This document shows, piece by piece, positions 53,659 to 58,070 of a stretch of 64,000 bases of DNA. The notes under the pieces were generated by a model. That model searched no databases, had not been told where the DNA came from, and was given only the letters and a program-made list of their open reading frames with translations. How positions within the stretch are numbered: position 1 is the stretch's first letter; each line of letters opens with the position of its first letter. The position numbers and the translations under genes are program-made. The stretch is from Alloalcanivorax dieselolei B5 (lineage in GTDB: Bacteria > Pseudomonadota > Gammaproteobacteria > Pseudomonadales > Alcanivoracaceae): assembly GCF_000300005.1 (NCBI RefSeq), contig NC_018691.1, positions 186,001-250,000 on the forward strand. The letters are read 5' to 3'.

Positions 53659-53730
53659 GAATCGCTTGCAAGGCAAGCTCCTACAGAGGCTCCGTAGCAC
53701 AATTTGTAGGAGCCAGCCCTGCTGGCGAAT
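53659..53730. repeat. Two REP arms of different classes
   Basis: An inverted arm of the GCTTGC class (53659-53686) is followed by a direct arm of the GCCAGC/GCTGGC class (53705-53730), as in the element at 42283. It lies between trmB and thiG. Confidence 0.75.
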
Positions 53731-53740
53731 GGACTTGGAC

Positions 53741-54520
53741 TTACCGGCTCACGCCATCCAGCGGCGAGGACGCGGCGGCATAGGCCTTGCGTGGCATGCG
53801 GCCGGCCAGGAACGATTCGCGGCCGGCTTCGATGGCCTTGCGCATCGCCGAGGCCATCAGGATCGGCTTGTTCGCATGGGCCACGGCGGAGTTCAGCAGC
53901 ACACCGTCACAACCCAGCTCCATGGCGATGGCGGCGTCGGAAGCGGTGCCCACCCCGGCATCGACGATGATCGGCACTTCCGCCTCTTCCAGGATCAGGC
54001 GAATGTTGTGCGGATTGAGGATGCCGAGGCCGGAACCGATCAGCGAGCCCAGCGGCATCACCGCCACGCAGCCCATGGACTCCAGTTCCTTGGCCACGAT
54101 CGGGTCGTCGTTGGTGTACACCATCACCTTGAAGCCATCGTCCACCAGTTCCCGAGCGGCTTTCAGAGTGTCGGTGATGTTCGGGTACAGGGTTTTCTGA
54201 TCGCCCAGGACTTCCAGTTTCACCAGGTCGTGGCCATCCAGCAGTTCCCGGGCCAGCTTGCAGGTGCGCACCGCGTCCTCGGCGTTAAAGCAGCCGGCGG
54301 TGTTGGGCAGGATGGTGTATTTGTCCGGGCTGACGAAGTCCAGCAGGTTGGGCTCGCCGGCGTTCTGGCCGATGTTGGTGCGGCGAATCGCCACGGTGAC
54401 GATCTGCGCGCCGCTCTCCTCGATGGCCGATCGGGTCTCCTCGAAATCCTTGTACTTGCCGGTGCCGATCAGCAGCCGGGAGGAATAGGTTTTTCCTGCG
54501 ATATCGAGTAGGTCGGACAT
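53741..54520 (-). CDS. thiG: Thiazole synthase
   Basis: This 259-residue enzyme builds the thiazole of thiamine. It has [31 protein letters not shown], where the lysine in VKLEV forms the Schiff base, and [39 protein letters not shown]. Full length. It is downstream of thiS with a 51-base gap. Confidence 0.97.
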
Positions 54521-55322: not shown

Positions 55323-56186
55323 TCAGGCAGCAATGGCGTTACGCAGCTTCTTGATCGCGTTGTTCTCCAACTGGCGGATCCGCTCGGCGGACACACCGTA
55401 CTCATCAGCCAGTTCCTGCAGGGTGGACTTGCTGTCCGCCAACCAGCGGCGCTCGAGAATATCGCGGCTGCGATCATCCAGCGCCAGCAGGGCGGAGCCC
55501 AGCTTGCGGGAATTCCGGTCCTGATCGTCCTGCTCGGCGAGCAGCTCAGCGGGGTCGCTGTTGTCGCTGTGCAGGTACGCGGCCGGTGACGGAATGGTGT
55601 TGTCCTCATCGTCATTGATGGGACCGTCGAAGCTGGCGTCATAGGCGCCCAGCCGACCTTCCATTTCCTTCACCTGTTCCGGGGTCACCCCCAGATCATC
55701 GGCCACCCGGGCGGCTTCTTCCGGCGTCAACCGGCCCAGACGTTTCTTCTGACCACGCAGGTTGAAGAAAAGTTTCCGCTGGGCCTTGGTGGTGGCCACT
55801 TTGACGATGCGCCAGTTACGGATCACGTATTCGTGAATCTCCGCCTTGATCCAATGCACCGCGAAGCTGACCAGGCGCACGCCCTTGGCCGGATCAAAGC
55901 GTTTCACCGCCTTCATCAGACCCACGTTGCCTTCCTGGATCAGATCACCCAGCGGCAGGCCGTAGCCGGTGTAGCTGCGTGCGATATGCACGACAAAGCG
56001 CAGGTGGGCCAGTACCAGATTGCGGGCGGCATCCAGGTCTTCCTGAAAGTACAACCGCTCCGCCAGTACCCGCTCTTCCTCGGCACTGAGCACCGGCACG
56101 GCGTTGACCGCGCGGATATAGGCGTCCAGGTCATGACCCGGTACCGCCAGCGGCATGGCCTGTGCACGTTGCAGTTGTGTGTTCAT
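55323..56186 (-). CDS. rpoH: RNA polymerase heat-shock sigma factor RpoH
   Basis: This 287-residue sigma-32 has the RpoH box [16 protein letters not shown], the region 2 stretch [20 protein letters not shown], then [20 protein letters not shown], and a region 4 ending [23 protein letters not shown] 56186 has a GGGAGAAGG site. A perfect CIRCE element begins 33 bases upstream of the start. Confidence 0.97.
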
Positions 56187-56218
56187 GTATCCCTTCTCCC
56201 TTTTGGATGGGAAAGATA

Positions 56219-56245
56219 TTAGCACTCGGTCCCTTTGAGTGCTAA
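56219..56245. promoter_or_regulatory. Perfect CIRCE element (HrcA operator) upstream of rpoH
   Basis: TTAGCACTC at 56219-56227, nine bases, then GAGTGCTAA at 56237-56245: both half sites and the spacer length match the CIRCE consensus exactly. It lies in the rpoH leader. HrcA control of sigma-32 is inferred; no hrcA gene is in this window. Confidence 0.85.
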
Positions 56246-56361
56246 TAGGGGTTTTGGTTCCCCGTCATTGTCGGAATCAATAATGATCCCGCTCTCCCCA
56301 TCGGACCCCGATCTGGATCAATGATTCCATGATTGGATGACGAATCGATGTAACGGGAGGT

Positions 56362-56387
56362 AAAAATCGCGGCTCACGAGCCGCGAT
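56362..56387 (-). terminator. Rho-independent terminator of ftsYEX
   Basis: ATCGCGGCTC and GAGCCGCGAT are perfect 10-base arms (56366-56387), followed on the minus strand by TTTTTA. It lies 18 bases after the ftsX stop. Confidence 0.85.
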
Positions 56388-56404
56388 CCACGAACATCCG
56401 TTCC

Positions 56405-57368
56405 CTAGAACTGCGGCTCGATCTCGCCCAGATGCCGGCTCACCGCCAGCCAGGCGCCAAGCAGGCCCAGGGCGCCACTGAACAGCGGCAGGATCAGCGC
56501 GGTTGCCGGGGACATCCCGGTGAGCGAATACTCACTTTTGTACAGATCCAGTAGCTGATTGACCGGGCCACCCAGCCACCACAGGGCGGTGCCGACCAGG
56601 ATCAGCGCCCCCAGCCCGCCAGCGAAACCGCAGCAGAAGCCGCTATAAAGGAAGGGGCGGCGGACAAAGCCGTCGGTGCCGCCAACGATCTTGATCACCA
56701 CGATCTCCTCGCGGCGGCTCTCGATGGCCAGCCGTATCGTATTCACCACCACCAGCACCACGGCGGCGGCCAGGGCCAGGGTCAGCACACCGATCAGGCG
56801 CTGCCCCAGCTCGATGATGGCATGCAGGCGCCGGACCCAGGCCACATCCAGCTGCGCCAGATCCACTTCCGGCAGCTTCGACAGGCGTTGCTGCAGGGCC
56901 TCCAGCGCCGCCGGCTCGTTGTTGGACGGGAACACCACGATCAGCGGCGGCAGCGGGTTGTCCGGCAGGGCTTCGAGTACGTCACCGAAACCGGATTGTT
57001 CACGGAATTCATCCAGCGCCTGCTGGCGGGTGATCACTTCGGTGTCCGCCACGCCGTCCAGTTCTGCCCAGTCCTTGGCCAGGGCCCGTTGCCGCTCCTC
57101 TTTGACATCCATCTTCAGAAAGACGGACAGCTGGGCGCGGCCATCCCAGCCCTGGGTGATGACCCGGGCGTTGTCCAGCAGCACCGACAGGCCGGTGGGC
57201 AGGGCCAGGGCGATGGCGATCACCAGGATGGTGAGCAGGGTGCTGCCGGGAGTGCCGCGCATGCGCCCCAGGGCATCCGCCAGCGAGTCCCGGTGATGAT
57301 GGCGCCAGGCGGTGAAGTGATCGCCCAGGGAGGTGCGGGCGCTGCGGGCGCCGGCGGGGCGTTTCGGG

Positions 57369-57379
<11 letters not shown>
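56405..57379 (-). CDS. ftsX: Cell division protein FtsX
   Basis: This 324-residue membrane subunit of FtsEX has a cytoplasmic start, one helix (LLTILVIAIALALPTGLSVL), a periplasmic domain and three further helices, including LGQRLIGVLTLALAAAVVLV and TIRLAIESRREEIVVIKIVG, the coupling region. It overlaps the ftsE end by 11 bases. FtsEX regulates cell-wall hydrolases at the septum. Confidence 0.95.

Positions 57380-58070
<691 letters not shown>

Follow-up and report, generated by a model that had tools for sequence, protein, structure and literature searches.

The analysed window, i.e., the whole stretch of 64,000 nucleotides from the genome of Alloalcanivorax dieselolei B5 (NC_018691.1, positions 186,001 to 250,000), carries on its minus strand an rpoH gene (55323..56186, ATG at 56184-56186) encoding a sigma-32 of 287 aa. 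The identity of the gene product can be deduced from the NCBIfam equivalog model TIGR02392 (398.9 bits, above the cut-off of 323.1), and its closest named relatives are the RpoH proteins of Alcanivorax (89% and 84% identity). A purine-rich, Shine-Dalgarno-like stretch, GGGAGAAGGG, is found 5' of the start codon (56191..56200, minus strand). Further upstream and in the same direction lies a frame (56405..57418, minus strand) which, from its translation, we take to be ftsX-like; in E. coli, an annotated ftsX likewise stands upstream of rpoH. The gap between both genes contains two terminator-like hairpins with a T run (56367..56395, minus strand; 0.2 expected), which suggests that rpoH has its own promoter. 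Besides, a palindromic-looking, GGAGCTTGCCCTGCAAGCGAAT-like repeat resembling a dispersed REP-type repeat is present near groES (at about 1700-1800 of locus L003) and in the window at about 53660-53790, where the copy was judged from frame translations only.

CIRCE and sigma-E-type boxes upstream of rpoH

At a distance of 32 nt from the rpoH ATG, the window holds a perfect CIRCE element (56219..56245, minus strand), reading TTAGCACTC-AAAGGGACC-GAGTGCTAA in rpoH sense and TTAGCACTCGGTCCCTTTGAGTGCTAA on the plus strand. In a pattern search of the window, all 18 arm positions of TTAGCACTC-N9-GAGTGCTAA were matched with 0 mismatches, confirming the exact HrcA operator that had been predicted ahead of rpoH, and this was the sole match when allowing up to 3 mismatches. 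As only 0.01 matches per window are expected from dinucleotide shuffles, a chance match was rejected as an explanation.

The search of the genome, covering 4,928,223 bases on one contig, gave three places at up to 3 mismatches, namely the rpoH site, a second perfect CIRCE at groESL (3840802) and a site with 3 mismatches at 3019270, while the reversed control pattern had 0 matches in the 4.93 Mb at the same threshold. The latter site is situated inside a reading frame and was judged to be a chance match. One copy of hrcA is present (TIGR00331, 307 bits, cut-off 197), standing ahead of grpE- and dnaK-like frames; hence, both genomic counterparts looked for on the basis of the original prediction, hrcA and a further CIRCE copy, do exist. 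With hrcA encoded and the other perfect CIRCE located at groESL, HrcA control of rpoH in A. dieselolei is likely, as far as can be judged from sequence, and the co-occurrence of site and hrcA described below points in the same direction. A CIRCE at hrcA itself was not found in the genome-wide search at up to 3 mismatches, and autoregulation of hrcA in A. dieselolei was accordingly rejected. In another member of the class, G237, a CIRCE-like site (G237:C1:2162223-2162264) stands directly before hrcA (2161219-2161884), and so hrcA autoregulation may exist there. The groESL CIRCE of A. dieselolei precedes the groES and groEL frames and has arms identical to those of the rpoH site, with HrcA shared by both, but it differs in beginning at the end of sigma-70-like boxes (TTGACT-N16-TATGAT) and in its spacer, TCTGGCATA, which lacks the TCNNA signature discussed below.

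The rpoH CIRCE is overlapped by a sigma-E (RpoE)-type promoter, GGAACCA-N16-TCAAA. For RpoE, the motifs GGAACTT (-35) and TCAAA (-10) are given in PMC4890791. The -35 box of the window, GGAACCA (56255..56261, minus strand), agrees with GGAACTT at 5 of 7 positions and retains GGAAC, whereas the -10 box, TCAAA (56234..56238, minus strand), follows at 16 nt and is composed of the last 2 bases of the CIRCE left arm and the first 3 bases of the spacer, resulting in a promoter score of 9/11. Transcription would start 5-8 nt past the -10 box (56226..56229, minus strand), i.e., inside CIRCE, and the rpoH 5' leader would then comprise about 40 nt. Consequently, the original description as an element of the rpoH leader has to be extended, since CIRCE also overlaps the -10 box and the predicted start region. 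In view of this overlap, the repressed input at rpoH is most likely sigma-E, although ECF sigma factors besides RpoE recognise similar -35 boxes. A sigma-70 consensus promoter was not found in 56150-56420. A sigma-70 -10 box within the CIRCE spacer, as might be read from TATAAT-like spacers in some family leaders, was discarded as well, because it is absent from the window and because GAAC and TCNNA are widely shared. Further rpoH promoters may read through the operator. In line with a sigma-E input, the genome encodes RpoE (TIGR02939, 306 bits, cut-off 236), the only one of 16 matches above the equivalog cut-off, the 15 others being weaker, ECF-type matches. The gene after rpoE is anti-sigma-like, matching Pfam RseA_N (32.9 bits, cut-off 24), while its match to the NCBIfam RseA model stays below the cut-off.

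Distribution of the combined element

Within the family, which from its named relatives was taken to be Alcanivoracaceae (class Gammaproteobacteria), 44 rpoH leaders from 46 genomes were compared, leaving out one genome without rpoH (G155) and one with a partial gene (G126). CIRCE is present in all 44 leaders, with flawless arms in 43 and 2 mismatches in the remaining one, whereas its nine-base spacer is variable. Counting offsets from the first CIRCE base in rpoH sense, GAAC is found at -16 or -15 in 44/44 leaders and the full GGAACTT in 12/44. The order sample comprised 114 rpoH leaders from 115 genomes (no rpoH was found in G062) and was not conditioned on the promoter. Both order and class sets are samples containing related, and thus not independent, genomes, for which reason the numbers of families are stated as well. 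At up to 2 mismatches, 35 of the 114 order leaders bear CIRCE, and 32 of these 35, representing 19 of 19 families, show GAAC at -16 to -14, compared to a mean of 0.4 and a maximum of 4 when the upstream 60 nt were shuffled in 1000 runs. In the aligned leaders, GAAC starts at -15 or -14 and more rarely at -16, corresponding to a gap of 15-17 nt between GGAACTT and TC, and the TC ending the left arm forms with the next three bases TCTAA, TCAAA, TCTTA and the like. CIRCE-bearing leaders without GAAC at this offset are those of G039, G051 and G058. At groES-type CIRCEs, GAAC occurred at the same offset in only 1 of 16 control loci (L017, at -15). A second, more distant RpoH-like protein is encoded in two order genomes (G003:C22:351243 and G103:C8:31849, with 46 and 45% identity to the window RpoH, respectively).

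The site at rpoH closely follows the presence of hrcA. Among the 114 order leaders, 31 have both, 4 have only CIRCE, 4 have only hrcA and 75 have neither (Fisher p = 2.9e-19, with relatives not being independent). CIRCE at rpoH without detected hrcA was observed in G002, G016, G087 and G091; conversely, G022, G028, G067 and G105 possess hrcA but no CIRCE of up to 2 mismatches at rpoH. For G022, the leader sequence used comprised 60 bases only. In G028 and G067, a CIRCE with 3 mismatches is in frame with the sigma-E boxes, whereas G105 has none, and a recent rewiring of rpoH is possible in these three genomes.

For the class, the exact composite pattern GAAC-N10/11-TTRGCACTC-N9-GAGTGCTAA was employed, with the count thus conditioned on GAAC; a looser search for GAAC-N11-CIRCE at 3 mismatches had returned 257 of 369 genomes but lets plain CIRCEs pass and was therefore replaced by the exact variable-gap version. 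The exact composite is present in 109 of 369 class genomes, at one site each, and in 106 cases, distributed over 61 families, it stands directly before rpoH. These 106 were placed by coordinates relative to the rpoH search (60), by tblastn of loci (14) or by tblastn of DNA (32), and over all composites 47 of 109 (14 + 33) were placed from DNA. The remaining three, named by reading translations, precede groES (G241 and G318) or a clpB-like frame (G227). The G227 composite (G227:C8:47854-47895, in locus L351, G227:C8:47804-48895) hints at the fused sigma-E/CIRCE module being able to serve other heat-shock genes. Outside the class, where looser forms may occur, the exact composite, a pattern tuned on the class, was found in 0 of 90 genomes of a phylum draw of 120, in which the only two matches were the A. 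dieselolei genome itself and G241 (groES).

Also in this set the composite goes along with the repressor gene. When read by eye, hrcA is present in 100 of the 106 genomes with an rpoH composite versus 268 of 369 overall, i.e., the composite at rpoH is found in 100/268 hrcA genomes and in 6/101 others (p = 2e-10). The exact composite is thus absent from the majority of the hrcA-bearing genomes sampled in the class. Class genomes with the site but without detected hrcA are G161, G249, G259, G332, G383 and G490. Of the 10 hrcA-negative site carriers from both samples (4 from the order and 6 from the class), 7 are less than 90% complete, while G016, G087 and G249 reach 95-99%.

The composite pattern demands nothing of the nine CIRCE spacer bases, whereas spacer base 3 should be an A if the sigma-E -10 box is read as TCNNA. 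This base is indeed A in 95 of the 106 rpoH composites. At positions 4-9 of the spacer, the share of A is 19% (p = 4e-55, with the sites taken to be independent), and among the groES CIRCEs, 2 of 14 have A at base 3 (p = 1e-8). The 14 groES control loci include two, L003 and L008, with identical spacers; left out of this control were L010 and L017, with a groES-like frame according to a crude motif test, and L034, with none.

Operator remnants and the E. coli case

In 79 of the 115 order genomes, hrcA was not detected. A strong sigma-E-type promoter with a score of at least 10/11 is nevertheless present in 36 of 79 leaders without detected hrcA versus 0.24 in shuffles; in the hrcA-bearing order leaders, this score is reached in 18/35 and a score of at least 9 in 30/35. 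For reading the CIRCE frame of hrcA-less leaders with a strong promoter, a slightly longer stretch was used, giving 37 leaders. CIRCE remnants with up to 8 mismatches at the 18 arm positions stand in this frame in 15/37 compared to 0.14% in shifted frames, and in 11/33 when excluding the four leaders with up to 2 mismatches. Two positions of the left arm (TC) are shared with the promoter, and the other seven show on average 3.0 mismatches where about 5.25 are expected by chance; the right arm averages 5.2 mismatches at 9 positions.

E. coli MG1655 has TGAACTT-N16-TCTGA between its ftsX and rpoH genes, fitting P3, the known sigma-E promoter of rpoH (PMC8103513). In neighbouring gene, boxes and spacing, P3 is like the promoter in the window, with the 16 nt between -35 and -10 being the same, but it is located farther from the ATG and is without CIRCE. 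From ftsX to the rpoH ATG of MG1655, no CIRCE was found, the best match having 8 mismatches at 18 positions, and the search for HrcA gave no match in E. coli, one of the control genomes. The statement that E. coli rpoH lacks CIRCE is thus correct. Likewise, the cascade claimed to be different from the E. coli model would differ in this respect, albeit not as a peculiarity of the A. dieselolei genome, since the arrangement is widespread in the class. The derived condition may be that of E. coli. On balance, we lean toward an ancestral rpoH promoter of the Gammaproteobacteria (in the wide sense of the genome set) that would have been an HrcA-gated sigma-E AND gate built as one fused element; the E. 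coli P3 model would then represent a remnant left after loss of hrcA, and the CIRCE erosion in the retained promoter would record many such losses.

Regulatory readings of the rpoH promoter

Probably, the HrcA operator forms part of the core of an rpoH promoter that depends on sigma-E, and HrcA occludes this promoter, resulting in AND logic; that HrcA binds there, that sigma-E is used, where transcription starts and that the two inputs combine in this way are all predictions. As is established in other bacteria, HrcA relies on GroEL for its folding and loses its activity once GroEL is occupied. In unstressed cells, CIRCE-bound HrcA dimers would shield the -10 box and the start region, and sigma-E RNA polymerase would consequently be unable to open the promoter even with some sigma-E being free. 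Heat or misfolded cytoplasmic protein would titrate GroEL, causing HrcA to leave CIRCE, while envelope damage would free sigma-E from its anti-sigma factor, and full rpoH transcription would require both events. Sigma-32 would then raise the level of chaperones, HrcA would be refolded and the loop closed. The other CIRCE target, groESL, would be subject to the same HrcA switch but be transcribed from a sigma-70-like promoter, and HrcA would thus control access of a different polymerase at each target. Several observations speak against this reading, namely the two deviations of the window's -35 box from GGAACTT, the promoter scores of the hrcA-bearing order leaders, of which only 18/35 attain 10/11, the three CIRCE-bearing leaders without GAAC at the offset, and the genomes listed above that have the site without detected hrcA or hrcA without the site.

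It is improbable that HrcA instead simply represses a housekeeping, sigma-70-dependent rpoH promoter, as at groESL, with the sigma-E-like boxes being incidental. CIRCE classically sits at sigma-70 promoters, and the groES CIRCE of A. dieselolei, beginning at the end of TTGACT-N16-TATGAT, conforms to this. At rpoH, however, a sigma-70 consensus promoter is missing in 56150-56420, the combination of fixed-offset GAAC and TCNNA in 61 families is not expected by chance, and groES CIRCEs rarely show the boxes (GAAC in 1/16, spacer A in 2/14). An inverted repeat that functions chiefly at the RNA level, forming a leader hairpin or a thermometer which governs stability or translation of the rpoH mRNA, has very little probability. 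In its favour, the repeat is close to the ATG, and in E. coli the mRNA of rpoH is known to sense temperature, but the predicted start lies inside CIRCE, and a transcript beginning there would lose the left arm. Moreover, a fold at the 5' end of the predicted mRNA (249 nt) is weakly supported, with a z-score of -1.78 and 13 of 200 shuffles being equally stable, no Rfam family scored above its cut-off, with two sub-threshold matches being judged chance, and the site tracks hrcA.

Nearly the same low probability as for a sigma-70 promoter is assigned to HrcA binding with little effect, where rpoH output would be set after transcription (by an mRNA thermometer and by DnaK, GroEL and FtsH) and the site would only trim the basal level. 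Control of sigma-32 in E. coli is indeed mostly post-transcriptional, and the lack of detected hrcA in 79/115 order genomes together with the eroded sites, suggesting repeated loss, would fit this reading. On the other hand, the arms are perfect in 43/44 family leaders beside a varying spacer, which indicates that the operator is kept by selection. The occlusion of a sigma-E-dependent promoter by HrcA is accordingly the preferred reading.

Both ingredients of this arrangement have been described before. Sigma-E control of rpoH is textbook knowledge. A predicted CIRCE at rpoH is on record for Geobacter, a genus outside the genome groups sampled here. In Geobacter sulfurreducens, a CIRCE before rpoH has been predicted (PMC545781, Table 8), and the available part of that study gives the same perfect operator with sites at rpoH (-51), at the hrcA-grpE-dnaK-dnaJ operon and at groESL. 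In contrast to this Geobacter operon, hrcA of A. dieselolei is without CIRCE, and the Geobacter rpoH site is not placed in a sigma-E promoter in the accessible text of PMC545781. Among the papers considered, each available in part, CIRCE at rpoH appears in PMC545781 and not in PMC10696704, PMC4890791 or PMC8103513. A description of a fused sigma-E/CIRCE element was not found in the literature searched, consisting mostly of titles and the beginnings of abstracts, whereas CIRCE at rpoH in Gammaproteobacteria may be listed by Permina and Gelfand 2003 or in RegPrecise.

The textbook picture of sigma-32 control derives from E. coli. Should the proposed reading be true, many Gammaproteobacteria would wire rpoH otherwise, with a repressor sensing GroEL load gating a promoter that senses envelope damage via a single overlapping element. 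This would explain how the stress signals of two compartments are joined, and it would suggest that E. coli represents a derived state, with the hrcA-less relatives providing naturally occurring stages of operator loss on which the evolution of regulation could be studied.
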